From IMG/VR virus record IMGVR_UViG_3300031221_000001, positions 31,138 to 95,137 of that record: DNA of 64,000 nt, one strand, 5' to 3'. The position numbers were made by a program, and so were the translations under genes. This stretch comes from a virus. This document shows positions 2,608 through 59,632 of this stretch, piece by piece; within the stretch, counting starts at the first letter, position 1; the number at the start of each line of letters is the position of its first letter. The notes beneath the pieces are model-generated. The model searched no databases and was not told the origin of the DNA. It saw only the letters and a list, made by a program, of their open reading frames with translations.

Positions 2608-3006
2608 ATGAGTAAAGAAGACAGTAAAAAAGTAGAAGTAGAGATCAAGAATCTCTCAGAAGTGGAATTGAATGCGCACGAGTCAGGAAGAATTATCGTA
2701 ACAGAGACTGAAGACGGTCAGGTAACGATTTCAGCAAAGACTAAAGGAGCGGTGAATGTAACGTATTTAGTTGGATTACTGGAGGTAGCTAAAAACGACA
2801 TCCTCAATCGTCAAGAAGGAGACGAACATCAGCAAGAGACTGTTGATGTCGTTCTTGAAGAAATCGACTTTGAGATGGATGTCCAAGGACAACTAAAATC
2901 TCAAGGAAAGAAAGTAGGAGACACAATTCAGATGCCAGAGCAAATCGCTGAACTTAGGAACACAGCCAAATTACAGTTTGAAAAAAGTAAGAAGGTTAAC
3001 AAATAG
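2608..3006 (+). CDS. Acidic protein of unknown function
   Basis: 132 residues, very rich in Glu, Lys, Val and Gln, with no membrane segment. The N-terminal 60 residues look like beta strands (RIIVTETEDGQVTISAKTKG). The C-terminal part is helical and charged. The gene is closed by a terminator 20 bases downstream, so it is the last gene of its transcript. The function is not recognised. Confidence 0.7.
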   Translation: MSKEDSKKVEVEIKNLSEVELNAHESGRIIVTETEDGQVTISAKTKGAVNVTYLVGLLEVAKNDILNRQEGDEHQQETVDVVLEEIDFEMDVQGQLKSQGKKVGDTIQMPEQIAELRNTAKLQFEKSKKVNK

Positions 3007-3025
3007 TAAAATCACGACAACAATT

Positions 3026-3060
3026 AAAAGTCCTACAGATTAACGTTTGTAGGACTTTTT
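3026..3060 (+). terminator. Intrinsic terminator
   Basis: Perfect 12-base arms (3026-3037 and 3048-3059; core AGTCCTACA / TGTAGGACT) around a 10-base loop, running straight into TTTTT at 3056-3060. It separates the 2608-3006 gene from the next transcript, whose promoter begins immediately after. Confidence 0.9.
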
Positions 3061-3092
3061 GTTGCATTAAACATATTGTTTAGTTATCTTTA
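3061..3092 (+). promoter_or_regulatory. Bacteroidota-type promoter
   Basis: GTTG at 3061-3064, exactly 20 bases, then TATCTTTA at 3085-3092. This matches the Bacteroidota vegetative pattern TTTG-N19/21-TAnnTTTG except for the last base. The ATG of the next gene is 21 bases downstream. The same arrangement recurs elsewhere in the window. Confidence 0.7.
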
Positions 3093-3113
3093 GTAAATAT
3101 TAAATCTAATGAT

Positions 3114-3545
3114 ATGGACAATAAGTATCGAGTACTAAAGGCATTGCAGAAGATAGAGCAATTACCACAAGACATACCTTCAGAAAAAGGATTGTCACAG
3201 ATATTCAAAGATCACGACTGTAAAAATTATGTGCGCTTAGCTAAGTATCTGGTGAACAATAAATATCTTGAAAGAAAAGGATCTCCTAAAACTAAATACG
3301 TTTACACTTGGAGATGTAGTCACAGACCGAACATAAAGATGGTTGAGTTAATAATCAAAGGAGTTAGTAAAGTCAATAAAATCCAGAATCGACAGTACAA
3401 TAAGTCGTCCAGAGCAAGTAGGCACCTATCGCCTAGCCAAGATTTTAGAATACAGATAGACCAACAAATCGATAAAGTTCAAAAAGAAATTGACGAAAGA
3501 AGATTAATTTTACAGGCATTAAATACATTAAGATCAGAACTATGA
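3114..3545 (+). CDS. Putative winged-helix protein
   Basis: 143 residues. Residues 1-70 show a helix-helix-helix-strand pattern (LAKYLVNNKYLERKGSPKTKYVY) like a winged helix whose wing is KGSPKTKY. The last 40 residues are a charged coiled coil (IQIDQQIDKVQKEIDERR). This fits a DNA-binding oligomer. It is first in a transcript of five small genes leading into the portal gene, where a small terminase often sits. Transcriptional regulator or small terminase subunit are both possible and I cannot choose. Confidence 0.55.
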   Translation: MDNKYRVLKALQKIEQLPQDIPSEKGLSQIFKDHDCKNYVRLAKYLVNNKYLERKGSPKTKYVYTWRCSHRPNIKMVELIIKGVSKVNKIQNRQYNKSSRASRHLSPSQDFRIQIDQQIDKVQKEIDERRLILQALNTLRSEL

Positions 3546-5140: not shown

Positions 5141-6865
5141 ATGGAGTTTAATTACGTCTCTACGTCAACGCTAGGGGACTCAGATGATTCTAAAAAAGAA
5201 TCTATTAACGAGAACCAACTAGGCGATCAGCTAGATGCAATAAAAAAGTCACGCCATCAAATGGCAATAGATGAAGGTAGGGTGCTTGAAAGAGCATTCC
5301 AATCGTCAGATCCAGACATATTGCTCAAAGCAAACAGTCATTGGGAGGACGTTCAGCAACGAGAGGGGAGTGGTACGAAATCTGACTTAGTAGACCCTAA
5401 CGCATGGACCGATTCTGTAGGGTATAAAAGTAAGGCAGTCTCAATGTCTTACGGAATGCTTAGAAAAATGGCAATAACGCCAGTAATTAAAGCAATTATA
5501 AGTACAAGACAGACTCAAGTATCTGCGTTCTCATCTCCTCAAAAAAATAAGTACGAAACGGGATTTGTTGTAAGGAAAAAGAAAGAGTTTTATACTGAAG
5601 AAGAGCCCAAAGTTTCTAATTCAGACAAGCAAACAATAAAAAAGATCACTCAATTCATAATTAGTGGTGGAGAAAAATCTAACGCATGGCACGGAGACAG
5701 TTTTGATAGCTTTTTGAAGAAAGTTACCGCAGATTCGTTGACAATCGATCAGGGATGCTTTGAAGTTGTAAGAAACAGAAAGGGAATTCCAACAGAATAC
5801 TTAGCAGTCGATGGAGCTACCTTTAGAATAGCTGATAGCTATGACGACGACAAGTATAGTGAAGGATCTTCTACTAAAAGAGAAAAGATTAGAGGATATT
5901 ACCCTTCATACGTTCAAGTAATTGATGGGATAATCAAAAACGAATACTATCCGTGGGAACTGTGCTTCGGAATACGAAACACTACGACTGACATATATGC
6001 TAATGGCTACGGGAAAAGTGAAGTCGAGGAGCTAGTAAGCATAATCACATGGATGTTGTACGCAGATTCTTATAATGGTAAATTCTTTTCGCAAGGATCA
6101 AGTCCTAAAGGAATGATTAAAGTGTCTAAAGGAATGAACCGTAACAGACTTGCAGAATTTCGTCAACAATGGATATCAATGGTTGCTGGAGTACAGAATG
6201 CATGGAAAATGCCAATCATTGAAGCAGAAAAAATGGACTATATCGACTTGCAAAAAAGCAACACAGACATGCAATTTGCTCAATGGCAAGAATATTTGAT
6301 TAAAATTGCATGTGCGATATTCAAAATTGCTCCAGAAGAGGTAGGATTTAATTTAGGGAATGCATCTGGAGGCGGAGCAATGTTTGAAGGTAACGGAGAG
6401 GCTAAGATTAAATACTCTAGAGACAAAGGATTGAAGCCATTGCTCAAATCGATTGAATTCTGGATCAACAAATGGATCGTCAATGCAATCGATGAAGATT
6501 TTGAATTTAAGTTCGTTGGATTAGAGGTTGATACTGAAGAAGCTGAAGTGGAGTTGGATATCAAAAAAGTAGGCAGCTTTATGGGATTCAAAGAAGCTCG
6601 AAGAAAACACAACCTTCCAGAAGAGCTTGAAGAGGGAGACTTTACACTAAACCCACAATACATTCAAATGATTCAGTCAAGAGAAATGAAGGGAGAGCAA
6701 GAAGAAAACGGTCAAGCTGTTGAAGAAGAATTTGAAGAAGACTCATTGTGGGACAATTTAGAGACCGATGATGAAGTGATCAAATCAATGTTTACGTCAG
6801 AACAGTTATCAGGACATCAAAACAATCCTATGATGGCAGATGCATTTAAAATGTTAATGGAATAG
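5141..6865 (+). CDS. Portal protein
   Basis: A 574-residue protein expected to form the dodecameric ring at the capsid vertex through which DNA is packaged and the tail is attached. The order of features fits portal families: a helical N-terminus, a core with TRQTQVSAFSSP, the WHGDSFDSFL segment and DSLTIDQGCFEVVRNRKGIP, a stem-like region about residues 300-420 (MDYIDLQKSNTDMQF, IFKIAPEEVGFNLG), and a very acidic C-terminal tail. Length is normal for large myoviruses. The gene leads the head module, with protease-scaffold and capsid genes downstream. Confidence 0.9.
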   Translation: MEFNYVSTSTLGDSDDSKKESINENQLGDQLDAIKKSRHQMAIDEGRVLERAFQSSDPDILLKANSHWEDVQQREGSGTKSDLVDPNAWTDSVGYKSKAVSMSYGMLRKMAITPVIKAIISTRQTQVSAFSSPQKNKYETGFVVRKKKEFYTEEEPKVSNSDKQTIKKITQFIISGGEKSNAWHGDSFDSFLKKVTADSLTIDQGCFEVVRNRKGIPTEYLAVDGATFRIADSYDDDKYSEGSSTKREKIRGYYPSYVQVIDGIIKNEYYPWELCFGIRNTTTDIYANGYGKSEVEELVSIITWMLYADSYNGKFFSQGSSPKGMIKVSKGMNRNRLAEFRQQWISMVAGVQNAWKMPIIEAEKMDYIDLQKSNTDMQFAQWQEYLIKIACAIFKIAPEEVGFNLGNASGGGAMFEGNGEAKIKYSRDKGLKPLLKSIEFWINKWIVNAIDEDFEFKFVGLEVDTEEAEVELDIKKVGSFMGFKEARRKHNLPEELEEGDFTLNPQYIQMIQSREMKGEQEENGQAVEEEFEEDSLWDNLETDDEVIKSMFTSEQLSGHQNNPMMADAFKMLME

Positions 6866-6869
6866 CGCA

Positions 6870-7598
6870 ATGAAATCAATCAAAGATTACATACTAATTT
6901 TTATAATTGCAATGCTGGCAATCTTCTCTGGATATCAGTGGTGGAGAGCTAGTCAGGCTGATGACGTAATCAAAGATTACAAAAGGTACGTGATAGAACG
7001 CGACACCTTAATTGAAGTGTCTAAAGGACAGTACAAAAAGATAGTCGACGATACCAAGTCAATTAAAGAGTTAAATCAAACACTGAAAAATAGGAATGAG
7101 GAATTGTTTGAGGTGATAGAAGAACAGAATAAGGACATAGTTTCGCTAATTGAAATAACTCAATCATTCAAGTCGAAAACCGATACAGTCTATGTTGAAA
7201 GCGACAACTCTTTTGTAGACTATTATCCGTCAAAACAAGATCCGTTTGTACAGTACACCAGTAGATACGTTTCCAGTAATAAAAGAATCGGTGAATGGTC
7301 TCTTTCAGATATAAACATAGACTTAGTGATTAGCGAAAAGATGCCAGGACTATTTGAGGCAGATCTTAAAGGACCCTCTTTCTTAAAAATAAGCTCGCTG
7401 CAAGTAGAATCGTTGCCATTAGAAAACGTCAATCCAGATAATTTCGGATGGCTGTTGGGAGGATCGTTGGATTACAATTGGACAGATCAGTCCCCAGCAG
7501 TAGATTTGTATGGAGGAGTGCGTGTTAAGAAAACTAACATATTTCTTAAAGCAGGAACTGACGCAACTTTAGGAGTAGGACTAATTAAAGAGTTTTAA
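6870..7598 (+). CDS. Membrane-anchored coiled-coil protein with a beta-rich C-terminus
   Basis: 242 residues. One transmembrane helix at about residues 8-24 is followed by a coiled coil (about 30-110). The C-terminal 60 residues are strands with Gly and aromatic residues ending in LGVGLIKEF, which resembles the outer-membrane-barrel-like end of small Bacteroidota phage proteins. An inner-membrane anchor, a periplasm-spanning coil and an outer-membrane-like end would suit a spanin-type lysis protein. Its place between portal and head genes is odd for that role. Function unproven. Confidence 0.5.
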   Translation: MKSIKDYILIFIIAMLAIFSGYQWWRASQADDVIKDYKRYVIERDTLIEVSKGQYKKIVDDTKSIKELNQTLKNRNEELFEVIEEQNKDIVSLIEITQSFKSKTDTVYVESDNSFVDYYPSKQDPFVQYTSRYVSSNKRIGEWSLSDINIDLVISEKMPGLFEADLKGPSFLKISSLQVESLPLENVNPDNFGWLLGGSLDYNWTDQSPAVDLYGGVRVKKTNIFLKAGTDATLGVGLIKEF

Positions 7599-23180: not shown

Positions 23181-26126
23181 ATGAAATCGGTACTAGGACA
23201 ATTAGTAAACAATCAAGCTATTCGAGGAAACGATAGTGCAGGATCTGGGAGGTTCGGTAGTAGTAGGAAAAGGAACATTGATGGCAAGTGGATAAATATA
23301 CCACAAGGACATCAGGGATTGGATATAATCACTTTTCCTGGACAAGCGATAAAAAGTCCTATCAGTGGAAAAATTGTAAAAGTTGGGAAAGCATATTCAG
23401 ACGATTCAAGATTTGACACACTTCACATTCAAGGAGATGAGGAATGTTACAGCGGAATTAGGTGCAAATTACTATACATATCTTCATCAGTGTCAGGAAT
23501 ACTGAATAAAACCGTTACTAGAGGCGAAGTAATAGGAGTTGCTCAGAACATAAGCGTAAAATACAAAGGAGCGACGAATCACTTACATTTAGAGGTGTTT
23601 TTCAATGGACTGATTCAAGATCCAACTAGTCTTTTTGGTCCAGAAAGTTGTGACGCTATCGACAATTCAATAGCAATCTCAGAAGTTGCGAATTTATTGA
23701 ATCAAGAAAACACACAATTCACTGCAGTAGAATACATACACCACATAGATCAGCCAGCGCAAATTGAAGACTTATTATCTCAAGAAGAATTTCAAAAAGT
23801 CTCTTTAGATAAAAATCAACTATTGCAGATTAGATATGAGGGAAGAACTAATCACCGAAGACTGTATGAAGGCCTCTCAATAACTGAAAAGAAAAAGTAC
23901 AATAAAGGTTCAACAGAATACAGCCCTTCTGCGAACTATCCAATAGTACAAGGAACTACAATTTTCATTCCAGTAAAGTCTGTTACGATTCAGAGCGCTT
24001 ATGAAAGCAACATTACGGTGACGAAAACCGTCTCCACAAAGTATTTCGCGCCAATCCTTAGAGAACTGACAAACGATCCAGGATTTGTGCCAGGATCTAA
24101 GAATAGAGGAGTAGATGCAAAGGACATTAGGCCTCAACTAACAGTTTGGTTATGGTCAAGAACTAAGTACTTAGAGAGTGGAGGAGATGATGGATTCGTT
24201 GATCTTACAAAAGACATTGTATCGTGCAATACAGGGAATACAATGGTCGATGGAGGCAACTTTACCATAAACCTTGCTCCAGTAATTACTAGGCTAATTG
24301 AAGAGCAAGATTCAGAAGGAAATTCTAGAAGCTATTGGAAGAAGATCGACAGCGATCACTACTCAGATCAAGATTCGTCTGACAGCGTATCTCTAGGTCA
24401 TATAAATAGAGAAAGAGCTTTCACATCAAACACAATAGGTTCTGAGTACGTTAGAAACGATCTGTATTACGAGAAAATTATTCAACAAAACGATTTAGTT
24501 TTTATCTCTTTTGAGAAATTAAAGATTGAAGGAAATGATATTTTAAACTCAGTTGGTGGTAAGTGGTACGATATGATTGGACTAGTTGACATTGTAACTA
24601 GACAAGATACAGCATCGACTTCAGATGCAACGATGTCTATTAGAGGGAGAGATTTATTCAAAGTGCTTCAAGACGACAATAGCTACTTCAATCCATACAG
24701 TATTGGACACGTAAATAGCTTGTATGGAGGAGAGTTGGGATCTCGATTTCTTCAAGGAGAGTTCAAAGAGATTTCAGCAATCATTCCGAGATCAATTAGA
24801 GACTCGATTGAATTCATTTTTCACAGAATAGCTTCAATTGGATATGTTCCGAATGATATTTTTAAAGACTTTACAAACAAAACCCAAACAACAAAGACCG
24901 TAAAAGGTGAAGACAAAAACGTAGAGAAGCAGGTTAAAGGAGTTTGGCAGTTGTTCAAAGTATTTATCGATCAATCGATTCAAGATTTAAAGGTAATTGA
25001 TGACAGTGTTGCAAATCCTAACGGATCTGTGTTGCAAATAATTAGAAAAATTTGTCAACAAGAATTTGTAGAATTTTTCGGTGACACCTATGGCGATAAA
25101 TACTATTTGACTTGTAGAAAGCCTCCATTTACATTTGATGCAGTCAGTCAAGCAGTTTGGAACTTAGATACAGTAGACGAAGACTTTTCTTCATTCCAAC
25201 AAGAGCAGCAAACTCCTGTAGGTCAAGCGACTACGCAACAAAAAAATCGATACGCTCAGAGAGAGGTTAGAAAACAGAAAGAGGTTGATGCAAGACAGAA
25301 TACAAACGACATAGTAATTGACGACAACAATGACACAGCATTTGCTGTTCAAGGACTAGACGAAGCCGTAGTTACTGTTTCGGAGAACTATCCAAGAGTA
25401 ATTAATATCAATGAAGACGACATTCACACATCAAATTTACAGTTCACTAACGAATATTATGCATGGTACAAACTAACAGATAAGGGGAATTTTGCTGGCA
25501 ATGCTGTAAATTTAGGACACGTTCCAGCGATATATTTTGACGAATACGCTCAGATTTTTGGAAACAGAATGCTAGATGTGACAAACAATTACAGCAACTA
25601 TAACTTTTTTGATCACAAAGAAGGCGAGAGAGAAGCAGACTTGTACGCTGAACAGGCATCTCAACTACTATCGTTTCTAGTAGAATCCAACATATATCTA
25701 CCATTCACAAGGCAAGGAACGATTACGATTAATGGGGACCGAAGAATCAAAAAAGGACATTGGATATATTATAGGCCTACCAAAGAATTCTTTTATGTTA
25801 CAGGAGTAGATCATTCAATTGCAATAAGTAAAGACAGTATTGATCGAACGACAAGATTGACGGTTGAGAGAGGGATGGTCAAATCTTACATTAGAAACAA
25901 GCCAGTCACAGTAACGGACAGATCAGGACAGGAAAGGCAGATTGACGTATCGTACTTCAATATAGTGGATATTGAAAAGCTAAAGGACGGAATATATGAC
26001 GTTGTGACTAAAGGATCAGCAAGTGAAAAGTTTGATTACAAAGCAAACATGTCTCTAAATGTAGATGTGATGGACTTCTTTTTACAGAAAAGACAATTTG
26101 AACAAAAGTATCAGTATGAAGACTAG
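23181..26126 (+). CDS. Baseplate hub protein with N-terminal M23 peptidase domain
   Basis: 981 residues. Residues about 40-155 are a zinc metallopeptidase of the M23/lysostaphin type: H44 and D48 in HQGLD and the HLH motif near residues 134-136. Such enzymes cut peptidoglycan cross-bridges. Next comes a LysM-like stretch (about 205-260), then a long hub region with SIRGRDLFKVL (about residue 480), a phrase typical of gp27/gpD-like hub proteins. The C-terminal part contains an insertion rich in Gln. The combination gives a cell-wall-cutting hub that acts during injection, functionally like T4 gp27-gp5. The stop overlaps the spike gene. Confidence 0.82.
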   Translation: MKSVLGQLVNNQAIRGNDSAGSGRFGSSRKRNIDGKWINIPQGHQGLDIITFPGQAIKSPISGKIVKVGKAYSDDSRFDTLHIQGDEECYSGIRCKLLYISSSVSGILNKTVTRGEVIGVAQNISVKYKGATNHLHLEVFFNGLIQDPTSLFGPESCDAIDNSIAISEVANLLNQENTQFTAVEYIHHIDQPAQIEDLLSQEEFQKVSLDKNQLLQIRYEGRTNHRRLYEGLSITEKKKYNKGSTEYSPSANYPIVQGTTIFIPVKSVTIQSAYESNITVTKTVSTKYFAPILRELTNDPGFVPGSKNRGVDAKDIRPQLTVWLWSRTKYLESGGDDGFVDLTKDIVSCNTGNTMVDGGNFTINLAPVITRLIEEQDSEGNSRSYWKKIDSDHYSDQDSSDSVSLGHINRERAFTSNTIGSEYVRNDLYYEKIIQQNDLVFISFEKLKIEGNDILNSVGGKWYDMIGLVDIVTRQDTASTSDATMSIRGRDLFKVLQDDNSYFNPYSIGHVNSLYGGELGSRFLQGEFKEISAIIPRSIRDSIEFIFHRIASIGYVPNDIFKDFTNKTQTTKTVKGEDKNVEKQVKGVWQLFKVFIDQSIQDLKVIDDSVANPNGSVLQIIRKICQQEFVEFFGDTYGDKYYLTCRKPPFTFDAVSQAVWNLDTVDEDFSSFQQEQQTPVGQATTQQKNRYAQREVRKQKEVDARQNTNDIVIDDNNDTAFAVQGLDEAVVTVSENYPRVININEDDIHTSNLQFTNEYYAWYKLTDKGNFAGNAVNLGHVPAIYFDEYAQIFGNRMLDVTNNYSNYNFFDHKEGEREADLYAEQASQLLSFLVESNIYLPFTRQGTITINGDRRIKKGHWIYYRPTKEFFYVTGVDHSIAISKDSIDRTTRLTVERGMVKSYIRNKPVTVTDRSGQERQIDVSYFNIVDIEKLKDGIYDVVTKGSASEKFDYKANMSLNVDVMDFFLQKRQFEQKYQYED

Positions 26127-27024
26127 AAGGATATACAGACAAATAGGACACTCAAAGATTGTAGGAGTTGGAGAGGATAGTCCTGTAGTTGGTTTTGGAT
26201 TTGCAATAATTCCAAACGACATGGACCGATCTACGTATATAAATCGATACTACAAGACAGGACTGTGTATGATCGTCAGTACATACAATGAAGTAATTAA
26301 AGACGTGAGAGTGCCTCTACACTTACTTCAAGAAATACAGTTTCCACAACAATCAGGAGCGTACGGATCATTAGTTTCTTGGAATTGCCAGCCTGTCACG
26401 AATCAGATTTCTTTAACAGGAATACATCAAGGACCAGGCAAAATTTTCCTTAAAAAAGAAAACGTGTGGACCACTTCTAGAACGATTGCTGGAAAGGGAC
26501 GAATATCGACTATAACAGACCTCAATACAAAGACTCATACAATCAACAGTCGAAACGACGAGAGTGTAGAAGGAGGAATCTCGCTGATATCGTCTAGTGA
26601 AGTAGGAAAGTCAAAGTTCAGTATATACAATAACGGATCTGCGATACTGGAGACAGATGACAAATTAGATGTGGTTTGTGAAAATCAAATATCGATTAAA
26701 ATAGGATCGGAAAAGCCTAGCCACTTAACTATTGATGGTGAAGGCAACTTATCATACACCGATCAGCACGAAAATACGGTCCGGATTACACAAGAAGGAA
26801 TATTGCAAGAAGCAAAGCTAATTCAGTTAGGCAAGGAGGCCGAGCAAGAAGCTATGCTTTCGGGAGAATGGAAGACTCTTCAAGAAAAGCTAATTCAAGC
26901 GATTCAATCATTGACCGTGCCAACAGCGCTAGGACCGTCAGGAACTCCAATCAATACGCAAGTGTTTAGTCAAATAGCACAAGAGCTAGATAAAGTGAAA
27001 TCTAAAAAAGTCACCCTAGAATAA
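26116..27024 (+). CDS. Baseplate spike protein (gpV-like)
   Basis: 302 residues from ATG 26116. An upstream in-frame TTG at 26098 is less likely. The N-terminal part fits an OB-fold (IVGVGEDSPVVGFGFAIIPND). A beta-helix-like middle follows (FSIYNNGSAILETDD, HLTIDGEGNLSYTD). The C-terminus LTVPTALGPSGTPINTQVF is typical of phage baseplate assembly protein V/spike proteins. Located after the hub gene, it should form the central spike trimer. It overlaps the hub gene by 11 bases. Confidence 0.75.
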   Translation: MKTRRIYRQIGHSKIVGVGEDSPVVGFGFAIIPNDMDRSTYINRYYKTGLCMIVSTYNEVIKDVRVPLHLLQEIQFPQQSGAYGSLVSWNCQPVTNQISLTGIHQGPGKIFLKKENVWTTSRTIAGKGRISTITDLNTKTHTINSRNDESVEGGISLISSSEVGKSKFSIYNNGSAILETDDKLDVVCENQISIKIGSEKPSHLTIDGEGNLSYTDQHENTVRITQEGILQEAKLIQLGKEAEQEAMLSGEWKTLQEKLIQAIQSLTVPTALGPSGTPINTQVFSQIAQELDKVKSKKVTLE

Positions 27025-44876: not shown

Positions 44877-45359
44877 ATGGGAAATTTTAGATCAACAAAA
44901 GTAATTGACGGATTCAGTACATGCTTTCGTCAATGGAGAGCAAAAGACACTCACTGTTCATTCATACATGGGTATGGAGTCAGTGTGAAATTTATTTTTA
45001 AGGGAGAATTAGATAATCGAAACTGGGTAGTTGATTTTGGAGGATTCAAGAGATCGAAAATAGGAATAGAAACTACAAAAGATGTTTTCTTACCACCAAA
45101 ACAATACCTTTCATGGCTACTAGATCACACAATGGTAGTTGCTGAAGATGATCCAGAACTTGAAACGTTTCAGGCGATGAGCGACAAAGGAATGATTCAG
45201 TTAAGAACGATTGACGGTGTAGGTTGTGAAAAGTTTGCAGAATACATTGGAACCAGATTTGCAGAATGGTGTACTGCTGAAACTATGGGACGTGCTAAGC
45301 TAATCTCATGTGAATTTAGAGAGCACGAAAAAAATTCAGCGATTTGGTTTGCTGAATAG
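44877..45359 (+). CDS. queD: QueD-like 6-carboxytetrahydropterin synthase (phage type)
   Basis: 160 residues of the T-fold 6-pyruvoyl-tetrahydropterin synthase/QueD family, the second step of 7-deazaguanine synthesis (7,8-dihydroneopterin triphosphate to 6-carboxytetrahydropterin). Visible: catalytic Cys27 in THC, H31 in the FIHGYG motif, VVDFGGFK, LDHTMVV, and the C-terminal VGCEKFAEYI with a conserved Glu. Two of the three usual zinc His are changed: the first (FSxxH) reads FSTCF and the HGH motif reads HGY. FolE and QueE genes follow within 2 kb. Confidence 0.75.
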   Translation: MGNFRSTKVIDGFSTCFRQWRAKDTHCSFIHGYGVSVKFIFKGELDNRNWVVDFGGFKRSKIGIETTKDVFLPPKQYLSWLLDHTMVVAEDDPELETFQAMSDKGMIQLRTIDGVGCEKFAEYIGTRFAEWCTAETMGRAKLISCEFREHEKNSAIWFAE

Positions 45360-45379
45360 ATGATGTGTGGTTATCTTTA
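45348..45379 (+). promoter_or_regulatory. Bacteroidota-type promoter
   Basis: TTTG at 45348-45351, exactly 20 bases, then TATCTTTA at 45372-45379. The ATG of the next gene is 24 bases downstream at 45404. It overlaps the end of the QueD-like gene, so the QueE-FolE group can be transcribed on its own. Confidence 0.7.
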
Positions 45380-45403
45380 TCTACATACATAAAAGATCGT
45401 AAA

Positions 45404-45760
45404 ATGAAAAAGCTAAGTAAAAGAGTATCAAAGAATGGATACGTCTACAAACAGACTCAAAGATATGACTGTCCAGTTTCTGGAAGATCAGTTATTATTT
45501 ACAGCATGCATACTAACGACGACGAAGAAAAGTTAATTGCACACGAGACCTTTATTATCCCAATTCGAAAAAAGCCAATTACAACTCCTAGCGGAATAAT
45601 AGTTCCTCCAGGAGAGAAGTTTCCTGGCAATCAGGAGTTTGGAACTACAGTCAAGGGAAGTAATTGCGGAGGAATTGATTCACAAACTCAAATTCTAGAG
45701 GAATTTGAAAAACTCAAAAAGTATTTACAAAATGGAAAAAGCAAGTTCAAAACCAGCTAA
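45404..45760 (+). CDS. Protein of unknown function upstream of queE
   Basis: 118 residues from ATG 45404. The frame is open to a GTG at 45365 that lies inside the promoter, so the ATG is preferred. The protein is basic and beta-rich with a Pro/Gly middle (IIVPPGEKFPGNQEFG) and a helical end. It overlaps queE by 29 bases, so it is co-translated with it. No family is recognised. It may assist the deazaguanine pathway, which is inference from position. Confidence 0.6.
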   Translation: MKKLSKRVSKNGYVYKQTQRYDCPVSGRSVIIYSMHTNDDEEKLIAHETFIIPIRKKPITTPSGIIVPPGEKFPGNQEFGTTVKGSNCGGIDSQTQILEEFEKLKKYLQNGKSKFKTS

Positions 45761-46499
45761 GAAGACTATTCTCGAGGTTTACAGAGCCGTTCAGAGTGAA
45801 GGTAGTCGAATAATGCCTACAGTGGTGATACGTACATCAGGATGTACTCATCGATGTTATTTTGGCGAAGGAGGTTGGTGTGACTCATGGTACACCTCGA
45901 TTCATCCTGAGAAGTCATTATATGACATTGAAGACGTTAAGCAGATGTACAAAGACAATCCTCAGATTAAAGAAATGATGATCACAGGAGGATCTCCGAC
46001 AATGCATCCAAAACTATTGCAAGAGCTAACTCAGTTTGCTAAAGAAAACGGAATTGTAACTACAATAGAAACTGAAGGATCACATTACGTAGAAACCGAT
46101 CATCCGATAGATTTGATTTCACTATCTCCTAAATTAAGCAATAGTGTGCCAGTGCTGGGAGCGGTCACTCCTAAAGGAAAGGTAGTAGACGAGAAGTTTA
46201 TAAAGCAACACAATAAGTTCAGAATGAACATCGACACGATGAAGCAGATGCTGGAATACCACACAGACTATCAGCTGAAGCCGGTGTGGGGTGGTGGAGA
46301 AGAAGCTTTGCAAGAGATTAGGGATTTGGTTAAAGAATTAGGTATTCCAAACAATAAAGTATGGATGATGCCTGCAGGAGACACTAGAGAACAGCTAGTT
46401 AAAATGTATCCTGTCGTAATGGAACAGTGCATTGAGGAAGGTTGGAACTTTACGGGAAGACCGCACATTATAGCCTATCAAGATCAAAGAGAAGTGTAG
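45732..46499 (+). CDS. queE: QueE-like radical SAM 7-carboxy-7-deazaguanine synthase
   Basis: 255 residues from ATG 45732. An upstream in-frame TTG is less likely. QueE converts 6-carboxytetrahydropterin to 7-carboxy-7-deazaguanine (CDG) with S-adenosylmethionine and a [4Fe-4S] cluster. Visible: Q-x-EG near residue 21, three cluster cysteines C38, C42 and C50 in GCTHRCYFGEGGWCDSWYT, the MMITGGSPT glycine motif, and ETEGSH. The spacing is C-x3-C-x7-C and not the common C-x3-C-x2-C. The start lies inside the preceding gene and the stop overlaps an HNH gene. Confidence 0.82.
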   Translation: MEKASSKPAKKTILEVYRAVQSEGSRIMPTVVIRTSGCTHRCYFGEGGWCDSWYTSIHPEKSLYDIEDVKQMYKDNPQIKEMMITGGSPTMHPKLLQELTQFAKENGIVTTIETEGSHYVETDHPIDLISLSPKLSNSVPVLGAVTPKGKVVDEKFIKQHNKFRMNIDTMKQMLEYHTDYQLKPVWGGGEEALQEIRDLVKELGIPNNKVWMMPAGDTREQLVKMYPVVMEQCIEEGWNFTGRPHIIAYQDQREV

Positions 46500-46873
46500 T
46501 GACCGTTCAAGATAGGGAGAGGGCTTATAAAAAGAATAGATACAAGAGCGATCCGAATTTTCGAATGAGAATTCTCCTCAGATCTAGACTTTATCAAGTA
46601 GTAAAAGGCAAGATGTCTAAAGAGAGTGCAGAAATCCTCGTAGGATGTAGCTATACTGAACTGATCATCTACATAGAGTCTCAATTTAAGCCAGGAATGT
46701 GCTGGGAAAATAGAAAGCAGTGGCATTTAGATCACAAAGTTCCTTGCGCAAAGTTCGACCTCACTATAATTGAAAATCAAAAGAGATGTTTTCATTACAC
46801 TAACCTTCAGCCATTATGGGCAAGCCAAAACTTATCAAAAGCAGCAAAATTAACTATAAAAACAAATAAATGA
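46499..46873 (+). CDS. HNH endonuclease, GTG start
   Basis: 124 residues from GTG 46499, which overlaps the queE stop (TAGTG). The frame is open further upstream, but only inside queE. The basic N-terminus (RERAYKKNRYK) and the core WHLDHKVPCAKFDLT... CFHYTNLQPLWASQNLSKAAK match a family of phage-borne HNH nucleases. The HNH residues would be the LDH pair and the Asn of NLQPLW/NLSK. It interrupts the queE-folE pair, a pattern typical of selfish homing-type nucleases. It could also take part in packaging or replication. Confidence 0.75.
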   Translation: MTVQDRERAYKKNRYKSDPNFRMRILLRSRLYQVVKGKMSKESAEILVGCSYTELIIYIESQFKPGMCWENRKQWHLDHKVPCAKFDLTIIENQKRCFHYTNLQPLWASQNLSKAAKLTIKTNK

Positions 46874-47517
46874 AACTACTATCGAGAGCTAACGGAAACG
46901 TTGCTAGAACAGAAGTTGAAAAACTTGAAATGCTAGAAAAGGCACAGTATCATTACGGAAAATTCCTAACATCAATGGGATTTGACTGGGAAGCGGATCC
47001 TCACACCGTAGACACTCCGAAAAGAGTTGCAAAAGCGTGGATTAACGATCTTATCAGCGGATCGATCAATCCAATGTGTAAAGTCACCGCTTTTCCGAAT
47101 CACGAAGGATATACAGGACTAATTTGTCAAACACAAATTCCTGTAATTAGTATGTGTGCTCATCACAACCTAAGTTTTATTGGAGTAGCGCACGTAGCGT
47201 ACATTCCAGGTAAAAGTAAAGACGATATGGTTGTAGGACTATCTAAGCTAAATCGAATCGTAGATTGGTACAGTAGAAGACCGAACATCCAAGAATCGTT
47301 GACGAAACAAATTCACGACGAAATCGACAAGTTGTGTGTCGGTAATCGAGGAGTGGCTGTAGTAATTGAATCTCAACACAATTGTGTTAGATGTAGAGGA
47401 ATCAAGAATAGTAGTGTGATGAAAACTTCTCAAATGAGCAAGTACTTTTTCGACAACAGTATAGGAACTAGACATGAATTTTTTAGTTTAATTGATCAAT
47501 CACGTCACAATGGATAG
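46870..47517 (+). CDS. folE: GTP cyclohydrolase I
   Basis: 215 residues. FolE turns GTP into 7,8-dihydroneopterin triphosphate, the first step of both folate and 7-deazaguanine synthesis. Motifs: MCAHHNLSFIGVAHVAYIPG (zinc Cys97 and catalytic His) and HNCVRCRGI (second zinc Cys and RG) near residues 170-178, plus GLSKLNRIVDWYSRRP. The length is normal. It overlaps the HNH gene by four bases and the next gene by eight. Together with QueD- and QueE-like genes it supplies CDG. Confidence 0.9.
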   Translation: MKLLSRANGNVARTEVEKLEMLEKAQYHYGKFLTSMGFDWEADPHTVDTPKRVAKAWINDLISGSINPMCKVTAFPNHEGYTGLICQTQIPVISMCAHHNLSFIGVAHVAYIPGKSKDDMVVGLSKLNRIVDWYSRRPNIQESLTKQIHDEIDKLCVGNRGVAVVIESQHNCVRCRGIKNSSVMKTSQMSKYFFDNSIGTRHEFFSLIDQSRHNG

Positions 47518-48025
47518 TATATTTTCAACTCAAAAGGCAATTAAGAAAATGGTTCATAAGTGTGCCTGTAGCATACAGGCACGTACGTTAAATCCTCCAA
47601 TTCCTGTAGTGATGTTAGGAGTGTTGAATGGAGCAATGCCATTTTTAACTGACCTAACTAGAAACTTGCCTTACATGGACATGCAGATAGATACAATTCA
47701 ATGCAAGAGCTACAGTGGAATGTTCGTTCGTGAAAAAGTTAAGATAACTAAAAAGCCAGATCTTGATTTGAATGGACTTCGAGTGATTATTGTTGAGGAC
47801 ATCGTTGATAGTGGAGAAACTATTACTGCCATCAAAAAATATCTCAACAAGAGCTATAAAGAGATCAGTAGCATAGAGGTGTGTTCGTTATTTAAGAGAG
47901 ATGGTTGTGATCTATACTTAGAGCACCTAGGTCGCGTAGTTCCTGATGGACTATGGTTGTATGGATACGGAATGGACAACGACCAATTAGACAGAAACAT
48001 TCCAGAAGTAATGATTAAATCGTAA
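47510..48025 (+). CDS. Purine-type phosphoribosyltransferase
   Basis: 171 residues from ATG 47510. A TTG at 47492 opens the frame earlier but is unlikely. The PRPP-binding motif VIIVEDIVDSGETI near residues 100-113 is clear, with the flanking VVMLGVLNGAMPF loop, which together match hypoxanthine/guanine phosphoribosyltransferases. It would join a purine base to PRPP. Within this cluster it may salvage guanine released by base exchange or handle a deazapurine, which is inference. It overlaps folE. Confidence 0.8.
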   Translation: MDSIFSTQKAIKKMVHKCACSIQARTLNPPIPVVMLGVLNGAMPFLTDLTRNLPYMDMQIDTIQCKSYSGMFVREKVKITKKPDLDLNGLRVIIVEDIVDSGETITAIKKYLNKSYKEISSIEVCSLFKRDGCDLYLEHLGRVVPDGLWLYGYGMDNDQLDRNIPEVMIKS

Positions 48026-48035
48026 AACAAAAACA

Positions 48036-48575
48036 ATGTTAAATTCAAGACAGATTTTAGATCAAAAGATTATCACAGGACCAATCGATGACGATATGGT
48101 AGCACAAGTAGGAGTTGACCTACGAGTAATTGAAATCAAGAGCATTTATGGGGGAGGAGTAGTTCCTCAACAAGGCAAAACTAAATTAGCTCACAAAGAG
48201 CCTGTTAAAAGAAACGGTGGAAGAGAGGTTGGATTAGAAAATGCAGTATGGCTATTACAGCCAGGAGCATACGACGTAACCTTTGAGCAAGGATGTGACA
48301 TTCCTGCAGACAAAGTAATGCTACTTCGCCAAAGAAGCTCTTTGTTAAGAAATGGATCAATCTTACATTCCAGCGTATTTGATCCAGGATTCAGTACAAA
48401 GAATGTAGGAACAGTTCTCATAGTAATTTCTCCAATCGTAATCGAATTTAAAGCAAGAATTGCACAAGCATACATTCACGAATGCACTGAGGTCGCAAGT
48501 GAAGATTTATATGACGGTCAGTTCCAAGGAGACAAGCAAAGAGATCAATCAAAAAACGTAAAGGATGCAAAGTAG
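48036..48575 (+). CDS. dCTP deaminase-like / dUTPase family protein
   Basis: 179 residues. The motif LRQRSSLLRNGSILHSSVFDPGFST carries the R-S-S-L and Gly signature of dCTP deaminase, and YDGQFQG near the C-terminus matches the nucleotide-binding end of the same family. The product would be dUTP (or dUMP), a thymidylate precursor. It overlaps the next gene by 11 bases. A bifunctional or dUTPase-only role cannot be excluded. Confidence 0.75.
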   Translation: MLNSRQILDQKIITGPIDDDMVAQVGVDLRVIEIKSIYGGGVVPQQGKTKLAHKEPVKRNGGREVGLENAVWLLQPGAYDVTFEQGCDIPADKVMLLRQRSSLLRNGSILHSSVFDPGFSTKNVGTVLIVISPIVIEFKARIAQAYIHECTEVASEDLYDGQFQGDKQRDQSKNVKDAK

Positions 48576-49533
48576 AGTCGTAATAAATCTCCAAGTTGAA
48601 GGAATACATGCATGGCCTGGAGTCACAGAAACCAAATATGTAAATAAAGTAGGATATTTACAATTTCCACACAGACATACGTTTGAATTCAAGTGTGAGA
48701 AAAGTGTTAGTCACGCAGATAGAGACATTGAAATCATCGACTTAAAGCATCAAGTCCTAATATATCTTAAACAAAAGTACACTGACGCTTCACGAGTAAA
48801 TTCTACAGGCATTGTCCATGATTTTGGTACTAATTCTTGTGAAATGATTGCTGAAGAGTTAGTGAAACATTTTAAGTTAGAGAGATGTGAAGTTCTTGAA
48901 GATGGAGAAAATGGTGCTGTGGTTTATGAAGATCGTGTAGAAGATTTTCCTCCAAAGTACTATTTTAAGGCAAAAGAGGTACCTGAAGACTTTAGAGACA
49001 ACATTATAAAAAAAATGGAACATCGAATGGTTTTTGGCATAGAGCCTCCCATAGACACTAGAGGAAAGAACGTTACATTCATTTGTAGTTATCTTAAAGG
49101 AGGTAAGAGCACCTTTTCTCACCTACTTGCTCAAGGAATGGACTGTAGATCGCCAGTGGCAAATAAGATTAAGGTGATCGAAGTTAGTGAAATTGTGAAA
49201 AAGCTTCTCAACAAGAGTGAGAGATCTGATTTGCAAGGACATCCAGAACTCAGCGATCAGATTTATCAAGAAATACTAAGAGCAAGCATGGATTACGAAA
49301 ACGTAATCGTTAGCGGAGCACGTCAATTGACTTTACTGAAAGCATTTCCAGAAGCAACGTTTATCTGGATTGATACGCCAAACGACGTCAGATATCAAAG
49401 GTTTAGAGATGATAAGTCGGCAAAAGACCCTAATAGTGGCGAAGCATCTTTTCACAAAGCAAATCTAGGTGACCTTGATTTAGGAATTGCCGATGTAAAA
49501 CAATACATTTTTAAAAGAAACGGATGTCTGTAA
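48565..49533 (+). CDS. QueD-like T-fold domain fused to a P-loop (deoxy)nucleotide kinase-like domain
   Basis: 322 residues. Residues 1-125 resemble a 6-PTPS/QueD fold: GIHAWPG (first His), FPHRHTFEF (H-x-H), DIEIIDLKHQV, SCEMIAEELVKHF and EVLEDGENGAVV align in order with QueD sequence landmarks. Residues about 165-322 look like a deoxynucleoside monophosphate kinase: CSYLKGGKST (P-loop), VIVSGARQL, and ATFIWIDTPNDVRYQRFRDD. The fusion could couple a pterin or deazaguanine step with nucleotide phosphorylation. The first-domain assignment is by eye; the kinase call is firmer. Confidence 0.55.
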   Translation: MQSRVVINLQVEGIHAWPGVTETKYVNKVGYLQFPHRHTFEFKCEKSVSHADRDIEIIDLKHQVLIYLKQKYTDASRVNSTGIVHDFGTNSCEMIAEELVKHFKLERCEVLEDGENGAVVYEDRVEDFPPKYYFKAKEVPEDFRDNIIKKMEHRMVFGIEPPIDTRGKNVTFICSYLKGGKSTFSHLLAQGMDCRSPVANKIKVIEVSEIVKKLLNKSERSDLQGHPELSDQIYQEILRASMDYENVIVSGARQLTLLKAFPEATFIWIDTPNDVRYQRFRDDKSAKDPNSGEASFHKANLGDLDLGIADVKQYIFKRNGCL

Positions 49534-49546
49534 GATAATAAAGAGG

Positions 49547-49554
49547 TATCTTTA
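49547..49554 (+). promoter_or_regulatory. Probable promoter for the ligase gene
   Basis: TATCTTTA, the same -7 octamer as at 3085, 45372, 51884 and 56593, with ATG 49579 lying 24 bases downstream. The -33 candidate 20 bases upstream is GATG, a weaker match. Confidence 0.55.
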
Positions 49555-49578
49555 TGATATAATTTAAAAGACAGTAAA

Positions 49579-50703
49579 ATGAAAACATTATACAAGAGAG
49601 CTAGAAACGGAAAGATTCAACAATGGAGTGTTGAAATTGAAGGAGACAAGTACAGAACTACTGAAGGATACAAGTACAGAGCTACCGAAGGATACGTTGA
49701 TGGAAAACTAACAACGTCTGAATGGACAGTTTGTCAACCTAAAAACGTAGGTAGATCTAATGAAGTTTCTGCTCCAGAACAAGCAGTTAAGCAAGCAATT
49801 TCAAGAGCTAAAAAAAAGAAGGATCGAGGATATGTTGAGGACATATCCTTCATTGATCAAGTAGAGATAGTGGATCCGATGCTTGCATACAAATGGAAAG
49901 ATCATAAAGACAAGACTGTAGGACTTCTTGCGAGTCAACCAAAACTTGACGGAATTCGCTGTGTAGGTACAATAAATGGACTATTCACTCGACAAGGGAA
50001 AAAGATAACTTCTGCACCTCACATTGAATCTGCAGTAATTAAAATGCTTGACGGAGTTCCTAAAGGAGTCACTCTTGACGGAGAGCTTTACAACCATGAC
50101 TTGAAAGAGAATTTCAACGAAATAACTTCAATTGTAAGAAAGCAAAAGCCTAAGCAAGCAGATTTAGAAAAATCTAAGCAAGTTTTGCAATATCATGTAT
50201 ATGACATTGACCATCAGAGACAGACGTTCGCACAAAGATTCTCTGCACTGAAAATTCTAGTGCATCAGCAGAAAGAAGATTCTCCAATCAAACTAGTTGA
50301 TACTGTATTTATTGAAAGAAACGATGCGGAAGACAATGAGCCTTTAATGACACTTTATCAAGGATATTTAACTGCAGGATTTGAAGGACAGATGATTCGT
50401 GGAGCAAATAGCTTGTACAAGTCAGGTCGTAGTAAAGATTTGTTGAAGAGAAAAGAGTTTGAAGATGGCGAATTTCAAATAGTCGACATTGAAGAGGGAG
50501 CAGGAAATCGTAGTGGAATGATGGGAAGGGTTAAATTTGATGGATTTAATTCTAATGCACGTGGAGGGTACGACTTTTACAAAGAATTGTGGGAGAACAA
50601 GGACAAGTACATAGGAAAGATGGCTACTGTTAGATATCAGAACTTAACTCCAGACGGTAAGCCGAGATTTCCAGTAATGATAGCGATAAGAGACTATGAG
50701 TAA
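49579..50703 (+). CDS. ATP-dependent DNA ligase
   Basis: 374 residues. An N-terminal WGR-like region (about 1-90) is followed by the nucleotidyltransferase core: active-site Lys in QPKLDGIR (motif I, about residue 120), TLDGELY (III), GFEGQMIR (IV) and DLLKRKEF (V), then an OB-fold with FQIVDIEEGAGNRSG. It seals nicks using ATP via a lysine-AMP intermediate. The N-terminus carries a 24-base in-frame duplication. Stands behind its own promoter and before a hairpin. Confidence 0.9.
   Translation: MKTLYKRARNGKIQQWSVEIEGDKYRTTEGYKYRATEGYVDGKLTTSEWTVCQPKNVGRSNEVSAPEQAVKQAISRAKKKKDRGYVEDISFIDQVEIVDPMLAYKWKDHKDKTVGLLASQPKLDGIRCVGTINGLFTRQGKKITSAPHIESAVIKMLDGVPKGVTLDGELYNHDLKENFNEITSIVRKQKPKQADLEKSKQVLQYHVYDIDHQRQTFAQRFSALKILVHQQKEDSPIKLVDTVFIERNDAEDNEPLMTLYQGYLTAGFEGQMIRGANSLYKSGRSKDLLKRKEFEDGEFQIVDIEEGAGNRSGMMGRVKFDGFNSNARGGYDFYKELWENKDKYIGKMATVRYQNLTPDGKPRFPVMIAIRDYE
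49648..49695 (+). repeat. 24-base in-frame tandem duplication in the ligase gene
   Basis: 49648-49671 and 49672-49695 are 22 of 24 identical, encoding KYRTTEGY and KYRATEGY. It is probably a recent duplication within the N-terminal WGR-like region. Confidence 0.8.
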
Positions 50704-50715
50704 GAACAAGCAGCG

Positions 50716-50746
50716 GTGTGAGGCTCTTTGAAAAGAAACCTCACAC
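50716..50746 (+). terminator. Stem-loop after the ligase gene (possible terminator)
   Basis: Arms GTGTGAGG (50716-50723) and CCTCACAC (50739-50746) pair perfectly, with a further CTTT/AAAG possible inside. No T-run follows, so termination is uncertain. It is the main structure in the 134-base gap 50704-50837. A weak TAAATTCT octamer at 50799 is the only promoter-like string I see in the remainder. Confidence 0.5.
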
Positions 50747-50837
50747 TCATTAATGGACTGCAAAATTAATCAAGACGCTAGCAAAGTAAAAGAGTGTTTA
50801 AATTCTAATGCCTGAAAAAGGGGAAAACTAATTTAAT

Positions 50838-51077
50838 ATGTCAAGAAGATCAGCAACGTTTAATGCATGTGACTTTTTAGTAGAAAAAATTAAGAATCAC
50901 TGCTTAGCGCATCAAGGTGAAATGCCTAATGCGATGACGATCAGTCCTAATCTGTACGAAAAAGTTCGAGAATTTTGTACAGGAGAACAGTCCAGACTGT
51001 TTATGGGAGTTGAGTTATATAGATCAAGAGATCTAGAATACACACAAATTTTATACAAATACAAAACACACACATAA
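50838..51077 (+). CDS. Small protein of unknown function
   Basis: 79 residues, alpha/beta, with two Cys (about residues 11 and 22) and a third near 47. The sequence MTISPNLYEKVREFCTGEQS suggests a helix after a short strand. It overlaps the TGT-like gene's start by one base, so it is co-translated with it. It may be a partner of the base-exchange enzyme. No family is recognised. Confidence 0.6.
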   Translation: MSRRSATFNACDFLVEKIKNHCLAHQGEMPNAMTISPNLYEKVREFCTGEQSRLFMGVELYRSRDLEYTQILYKYKTHT

Positions 51078-51859
51078 TGGACTTTTATTACATACCACCA
51101 AGATCGCAAAACGAATTAATGCACAATGGAGACAGATACTTCTGTTTAGCACAACAGTATCTTAGCGATGATAAATACGCAGCATTCTTTCAGAATCTTT
51201 CTGACGATGCATGGGTCACTTTAGATAATGGCGCAGGCGATCATGATTTAGTGACTGAAGACGCTCTCTTTAAAGTAATGAAAGAGTTGATTCCTAACGA
51301 AGTGATTCCACCAGACATATTATTTGATCATACAAAAACTAGACAGAATGCACTTGCGTTTTATGAAAGAATGGTCAAAGAAGAGCTTGACGATAAGATA
51401 GAAGTGCTTTTCTGTCCTCAAGGCAAAAATCAGTTAGATTGGCTAACATCTTATGTGTGGGCATTGGAGCGAGATTGGATAAAAACAATTGGTTTAAGCA
51501 AAATATCTGTCCCTCAAGCGTTTTTAGGAGTGAAAGGAGACGTAGGCATTATGGAAGCACGACACAACTGTTTCAACTATCTCAAAGTGCACGGACTAAT
51601 ACAAAAACCAATGCACCTATTAGGAATGGGCGATCCTAGAGAATTTCAATATTATCAACAATTTGAAGAGGGTGCTTACATTAGAAGTTCAGATAGCTGC
51701 AACTCTATTTGGAGTGCAATCAATCAATTAGATTGGACTGAGGAAAAGTTCGAAAGAGTACCTACTCCAAAAGACTATTTTGATAGGGACGAGTTGACCG
51801 ACAAACAGAGAACTGTTTTTGAAAATAACGTAGACTTTCTCAAAGAGTCTGTAGTTTAG
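51077..51859 (+). CDS. TGT-fold DNA guanine transglycosylase, DpdA-like
   Basis: 260 residues that read as a TIM barrel of the tRNA-guanine transglycosylase superfamily: TLDNGAGDHD with D50 (matching the DSGG strand), PPDILFDHTKTRQNALAFYERM, LFCPQGKN (QG motif), IKTIGLSK (IGG-like), KPMHLLGMGDPREF, and YIRSSDSC with an Asp near 206 as nucleophile candidate. Phage members of this group (DpdA types) exchange guanine in DNA for a 7-deazaguanine base. It is shorter than bacterial TGT. The DNA substrate is inferred from the phage context and the folE/queD/queE genes nearby. Confidence 0.72.
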   Translation: MDFYYIPPRSQNELMHNGDRYFCLAQQYLSDDKYAAFFQNLSDDAWVTLDNGAGDHDLVTEDALFKVMKELIPNEVIPPDILFDHTKTRQNALAFYERMVKEELDDKIEVLFCPQGKNQLDWLTSYVWALERDWIKTIGLSKISVPQAFLGVKGDVGIMEARHNCFNYLKVHGLIQKPMHLLGMGDPREFQYYQQFEEGAYIRSSDSCNSIWSAINQLDWTEEKFERVPTPKDYFDRDELTDKQRTVFENNVDFLKESVV

Positions 51860-59538: not shown

Positions 59539-59613
59539 TCTCACGTAGCTCAGTTGGTAGAGTGGCTCTTTTTTATAAGGAGCAAGTCATAGGTTCGAAT
59601 CCTGTCGTGAGAC
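59539..59613 (+). tRNA. tRNA with an enlarged anticodon arm (anticodon uncertain, possibly UUA)
   Basis: A cloverleaf folds well: acceptor 59539-59545 with 59606-59612 (7 bp), D arm 59548-59563, variable loop 59584-59588, and T arm 59589-59605 with loop TTCGAAT. The anticodon arm (59565-59583) has 19 bases where 17 is normal. With a 6-bp stem the loop is TTTTATA and the anticodon reads TTA, which decodes the stop codon UAA. With a 5-bp stem the loop has nine bases. G59538 pairs with C59613, an extra bp as in tRNA-His. CCA is not encoded in the standard place (C-A-A follows C613). Confidence 0.75.
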
Positions 59614-59632
59614 CAAATTAAAGACAGTTAAA

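Follow-up and report, generated by a model that had tools for sequence, protein, structure and literature searches.

The window, a stretch of 64,000 nucleotides (bases 31138-95137 of the virus record IMGVR_UViG_3300031221_000001, whose full length is 95,137 bases), comes from an uncultured phage whose host is probably a member of the Bacteroidota, and carries between positions 44877 and 51859 the genes of a predicted 7-deazaguanine DNA-modification system. The four open reading frames named in a preliminary description of this DNA (FolE, QueD-like, QueE-like and a protein with the fold of tRNA-guanine transglycosylases, TGT) are all present where they had been placed, but two further components were missed there, a phosphoribosyltransferase (PRTase) and, at 48565-49533, a fusion of a QueD-fold paralog domain with a P-loop kinase, and so was the lack of QueC. 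The features of the locus are as follows:

44877-45359, + strand: QueD-type 6-carboxytetrahydropterin synthase, H2NTP to CPH4 (phrog_2389 'QueD-like', E=3.7e-33; PTPS, E=1.1e-8)
45365-45760, + strand: small protein without assigned function, between queD and queE (homologs at the equivalent place in loci L006 and L007)
45732-46499, + strand: QueE radical-SAM 7-carboxy-7-deazaguanine synthase (phrog_2076, E=4e-47)
46870-47517, + strand: FolE GTP cyclohydrolase I (Pfam GTP_cyclohydroI PF01227, E=7.6e-44)
47510-48025, + strand: hypoxanthine-guanine phosphoribosyltransferase (HGPRT)-type enzyme (TIGR01203, E=1.3e-30; HGPRTs of the PDB, E=7e-21)
48036-48575, + strand: dCTP deaminase/dUTPase-family protein (DCD, E=1.5e-9; in the majority of loci it neighbours this DpdA family)
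48565-48930, + strand: QueD-fold (T-fold) paralog domain, residues 1-122, candidate decarboxylase of 7-carboxy-7-deazaguanine, DpdL-like (phrog_17812, E=5e-24)
49060-49533, + strand: P-loop kinase domain fused behind the QueD-fold domain (AAA_18, E=1e-5)
51077-51859, + strand: predicted minimal TGT-fold DNA guanine transglycosylase, DpdA family (phrog_20335, E=1.3e-61)

Family profiles and conserved motifs bore out the earlier claim that FolE, QueD and QueE, all present with their motifs, cover the way from GTP to 7-carboxy-7-deazaguanine (CDG), which is an established pathway (PMC13329287, PMC6884629). By homology, FolE would convert GTP into H2NTP, from which QueD would form CPH4 and QueE finally CDG. 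In the QueD-type enzyme the catalytic Cys is conserved, along with the Asp-His dyad and the terminal Glu, and HGY stands where HGH is usual, as is also the case in Cellulophaga phage phiST (KC821604), in ACP17, in BUCT-ZZ01 and in the QueC-bearing Flavobacterium phage vB_FspM_immuto_2-6A (NC_055915). Because the catalytic residues are kept and the same variant recurs in these four phages, the HGY type should still function as QueD. A gene swap is seen in L007, where a canonical HGH-type QueD (2950-3519) sits in an otherwise syntenic locus. QueE shares 60% identity with the enzyme of phiST and 63% with that of immuto_2-6A, and its cluster motif CX3CX7C has a spacing common to the window, phiST, L008 and L009. 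The QueE proteins of phages X1 (L018), Paride (L021) and BUCT-ZZ01 (L022) gave no match to the usual C-x3-C-xn-C motif, which suggests a variant arrangement for binding the cluster. The small protein at 45365-45760 had no match in Pfam or PHROG family searches.

The protein at 51077-51859 had been described as a TGT-fold protein resembling phage DpdA enzymes, and structure prediction agreed with this view. The AlphaFold2 model, obtained with eight sequences of the window clade, was confident (pLDDT 90.3, pTM 0.87) and indicates a TGT-like (beta/alpha) barrel; the top 22 Foldseek matches in the PDB were all TGT or DpdA proteins with probability 1.00, including TGT 1iq8 (E=4e-6) as well as 7ui4, a bacterial DpdA that inserts preQ0 into DNA (E=1.5e-4). 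Among viral models, the protein M4SLA5 of phiST matched with a TM of 0.95, and R9TGF0 of Vibrio nt-1, the phage from which the DpdA2 family was defined (PMC6884629), did so weakly. Sequence profiles gave a divided answer. Searches of Pfam, of NCBIfam and, by phmmer and hmmsearch, of the PDB returned no TGT-related match, whereas hhalign related the protein to the one annotated as 'DNA guanine transglycosylase DpdA' in immuto_2-6A (99.5%, E=3e-23, 247 columns), and profile comparison grouped it with phage proteins of the D479 type (99%) as a single family. The phage family so defined counts phiST gp042 and the DpdA annotated in immuto_2-6A among its members. Four residues, D50, D80, Q115 and D206, are identical in 30/30 homologs and, by motif order only, may correspond to D102, D156, Q203 and D280 of TGT, whose catalytic set consists of two Asp, a base-recognition Asp and a Gln. 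DUF6610 was set aside as the family of this protein (weak match, E=0.06), and a scan of genome contigs found no cellular relatives.

The N-terminal domain of the fusion protein adopts a T-fold with three zinc histidines (AlphaFold2 pLDDT 88.6), and its best Foldseek match in the PDB was E. coli QueD (4ntk, E=1.4e-5). Across the paralogs of 20 phages, H15, H36 and H38 (the zinc triad of PTPS), E112, which is the purine-binding Glu, and S91-C92-E93 are invariant; on the other hand, the position of the catalytic Cys of QueD is taken by an invariant Leu32, and there is no conserved Asp-His dyad. The loss of these catalytic residues rules out a second QueD, and since the fold and the zinc histidines are nevertheless kept, the domain is a QueD-fold paralog whose reaction is most likely a different one. 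Such phrog_17812-type paralogs may be the DpdL of Cui and co-workers (NAR 51:9214, cited in PMC13329287 and PMC12783734), who in 2023 reportedly predicted DpdL as a CDG decarboxylase in phages with 2′-deoxy-7-deazaguanosine (dDG). In all the window-clade loci with small DpdA that were examined, the AAA_18 kinase is fused to the paralog or lies within ~1 kb of it. A constant pairing of this DpdA with a kinase was nevertheless rejected, since AAA_18 is missing from D479-type loci and the T4 gp1-type kinase of D479 and Ahp1 does not recur generally. Other fusions are independent of the one with the kinase: in MA9V-3 an HNH-like region is N-terminal to the paralog (L001, 13623-14525), and in gp176 of Bakedbeans (L020, 5221-6372) the paralog is fused to another N-terminal domain. 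In Faecalibacterium phage Roos (L015, 6031-7899) three genes follow one another, for the paralog, for a DpdA of phrog_887 and for a transporter of the Vut_1/YhhQ type; neither QueD nor QueE was found in the Roos record, and this looks like a salvage version importing a 7-deazaguanine.

What the paralog might do is suggested by the company it keeps. QueC (PF06508) had no match in the entire 95,137-base record, in a profile search that did find it in a Bacteroides control genome, so that the QueC or Gat-QueC typical of preQ0-, G+- and preQ1-type Dpd systems was not found in this phage. The relation was then followed in three samples. In the first, 18 records, nearly all chosen via the paralog or DpdA, were searched whole: QueE was present in 16 of them, 16 gave no QueC match, and the matches in the remaining two were weak or partial, D479 (69/210 positions) and X1 (below the cut-off) probably representing, by judgement, other N-type ATP pyrophosphatases. 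In the second, consisting of 28 IMG/VR contigs of at least 30 kb found by the paralog alone, QueC was detected in 0/28, and a QueE-profile match in 25/28 (strong in 24). The third was a control of 12 taxonomically spread QueE-positive phages, chosen by their absence from the paralog list, with QueC in 12/12 and the paralog in 0/12. Comparison of the control (12 with QueC, 0 without) with the 40 records of the first two samples that hold both QueE and the paralog (1 with, 39 without, the D479 match above the cut-off being counted as QueC) gave p ~6e-11 by Fisher's exact test, a value to be read as indicative because related phages are not independent and the control was chosen for lacking the paralog. 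The exclusion between paralog and QueC is near-complete, and it suggests that the paralog acts after CDG, in the place of QueC. That DpdL should replace QueC in phages making CDG was our own expectation rather than a published criterion, and it agrees with these counts. Moreover, in immuto_2-6A a DpdA of this family occurs alongside QueC, the paralog being absent, so that both look interchangeable as feeders upstream of one DpdA family.

Altogether, the locus is best read as modifying DNA with a 7-deazaguanine, because the CDG pathway and a TGT-fold relative of DpdA are encoded together in the phage. We consider it probable that the locus makes a 7-deazaguanine base via CDG and the paralog, and that the protein at 51077-51859 puts this base in place of guanine in the DNA of the phage itself. 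In the proposed scheme the paralog domain, with its zinc site, would take CDG as its substrate and most likely remove the carboxyl group to give 7-deazaguanine, as suggested by its QueD fold, the lost QueD residues and the exclusion with QueC. The TGT-fold enzyme would then swap guanine in DNA for the modified base through a covalent Asp intermediate, as its fold, its family and the invariant D50, D80, Q115 and D206 lead one to expect, leaving dG replaced by dDG and/or by its 7-carboxy form (dCDG). Since QueC is absent and a QueD-fold paralog is found instead, the modified base is probably CDG or its product 7-deazaguanine, and not a preQ0 derivative. Such a modified dG may block restriction enzymes that contact the N7 of guanine, a protection established for other 7-deazaguanines (PMC6884629).

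Several points weigh against this interpretation. Decarboxylation is the simplest proposal for the paralog, whose reaction cannot be read from its sequence, and a host QueC could still convert CDG. Homology of the protein at 51077-51859 to TGT is suggested by structure alone, as hhalign gave ~2% to E. coli TGT, 2% to the DpdA of phrog_10773 and 30% to the Paride type; DpdA2 is likewise undetectable from DpdA1 by PSI-BLAST (PMC6884629). In addition, the enzyme is a bare barrel of 260 residues without a zinc-binding extension, which leaves DNA a presumed substrate. Finally, the GT4 glycosyltransferase beside the paralog in other phages is not what one would expect if C7 of the product carried only H and so offered nothing to glycosylate.

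Alternatively, the modification might be dCDG itself, or a preQ0-type base completed by the host, with DpdA inserting CDG or preQ0 of host origin and the paralog only carrying or channelling CDG to DpdA. QueC is missing from the phage yet common in bacteria, the Bacteroides control genome included, and fusions of the paralog to domains as varied as the kinase, the HNH-like region of MA9V-3 and the other N-terminus of Bakedbeans would suit a carrier or adaptor; the invariant zinc triad, the Glu and the new invariant Cys92 look catalytic, however, and the near-complete exclusion with QueC suggests a chemical step replacing it, so that this explanation seems rather unlikely to us.

The GT4 association leads to another explanation. 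Among 79 paralog loci, GT4 accompanies small or D479-type DpdA in 0/18 and the others in 58/61 (p=5e-15, the loci being partly related), many of the GT4-bearing loci having large DpdA types. Loci with GT4 near the paralog are found among IMG/VR loci L027-L104 and in phages ACP17 (L016), Phosso (L017), X1 (L018), Paride (L021) and BUCT-ZZ01 (L022), and these loci possibly represent a glycosylated 7-deazaguanine system. The paralog might then make a CDG derivative with a reactive handle to be decorated by a partner, phosphorylated by the fused kinase in the lineage of this phage and glycosylated by GT4 in the large-DpdA lineages, giving new hypermodified guanines. We regard this as doubtful and retain it because the GT4 association is hard to square with an unsubstituted C7. 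The two unexplained partners, fused kinase and alternative glycosyltransferase, could in any case extend the known base chemistry.

The HGPRT-type PRTase, which also occurs in the L006, L007, L008 and L041 clusters, plausibly salvages the guanine released by DpdA, recycling it to GMP. It was rejected as an essential part of the system, as phiST, MA9V-3, L009 and L014 are without it. Together with a P-loop kinase fused to the paralog and a small DpdA free of nucleic-acid-binding extras, the PRTase might instead point to a route at the level of nucleotides, in which PRTase and kinase would furnish a (d)NTP analogue for the phage polymerase and the TGT-like protein would act on nucleotides and not on DNA. 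This is improbable, considering that many loci of the family, including those of phiST and MA9V-3, do without a PRTase, that the D479-type branch has no kinase, and that the family includes the annotated DNA guanine transglycosylase of immuto_2-6A. FolE, for its part, is common to folate synthesis too, and its presence in the locus would be in keeping with a role of these genes in the infected cell's queuosine modification of tRNA or its folate metabolism instead of DNA modification; the lack of QueC, the absence of a match between the TGT-fold protein and the tRNA TGT profile, and the grouping of that protein with a phage family make this very improbable.

The locus has close parallels among known phages. 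The gene order QueD-QueE-FolE-...-QueD paralog-kinase-DpdA is conserved in phiST and related contigs. In phiST (gp036-gp042) QueD, QueE, FolE, the paralog gp040, the kinase gp041 and the DpdA gp042 follow one another as in the window, QueC is equally missing, and gp042 has 42% identity to the protein at 51077-51859 (TM 0.95); the differences are that paralog and kinase are two adjacent separate genes directly before DpdA, and that MazG is found in place of PRTase and dUTPase. The DNA of phiST is said to have been analysed by Cui and co-workers in 2023 (dDG/dCDG). Immuto_2-6A shares with the window the small DpdA family, QueD, QueE, PRTase and FolE, but has QueC, QueF and a formyltransferase and no QueD paralog, and thus belongs to the preQ0/preQ1 branch. 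In the DpdA1 and DpdA2 systems of phages 9g, CAjan and nt-1, FolE, QueD and QueE likewise feed a TGT-fold DNA enzyme, but with QueC or Gat-QueC, giving dPreQ0, dADG or dG+ (PMC6884629). The precedent invoked in the preliminary description, phages with folE, queD, queE and a DpdA, therefore applies in part: those genes, the CDG pathway and the fold of the DpdA relative are all present in the window, whereas the precedent phages also carry QueC, absent here, and have dPreQ0, dADG, dG+ or dPreQ1 as their bases (PMC6884629). The locus is best seen as a QueC-less CDG/7-deazaguanine branch of the known 7-deazaguanine DNA-modification systems, closest to phiST and distinctive in its kinase fusion, and this is supported by one small DpdA family being fed by QueC/QueF in immuto_2-6A and by the QueD paralog here. 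From the near-complete exclusion between paralog and QueC (0/28 vs 12/12), the modified base can be predicted directly, and in a way open to testing, in hundreds of phages, with at least 580 relatives among at least 599 matched stretches in IMG/VR.

The location of the Dpd genes inside a replication module, as described before, was confirmed by their neighbours: a DnaB-type helicase (41949) lies upstream, as does a terminase (40215), and a DNA ligase (49579), PolIII alpha (53014) and RecA (60663) follow downstream. Further along the window, a tRNA gene was called at 59539-59614 with the anticodon TTA, which would read UAA, yet TAA is the commonest stop (44/65 open reading frames); the identity of the anticodon is uncertain, however, given that two extra nucleotides appear in its loop when the gene is aligned to Rfam. 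This gene is also present in the identical relative L005 and not in L006-L009. The phage of L011 encodes a tmRNA of its own (tag AEYKLAA) as well as a tRNA-Gln, at 6105-6455 and 6806-6879 (record bases ~26105-26879).

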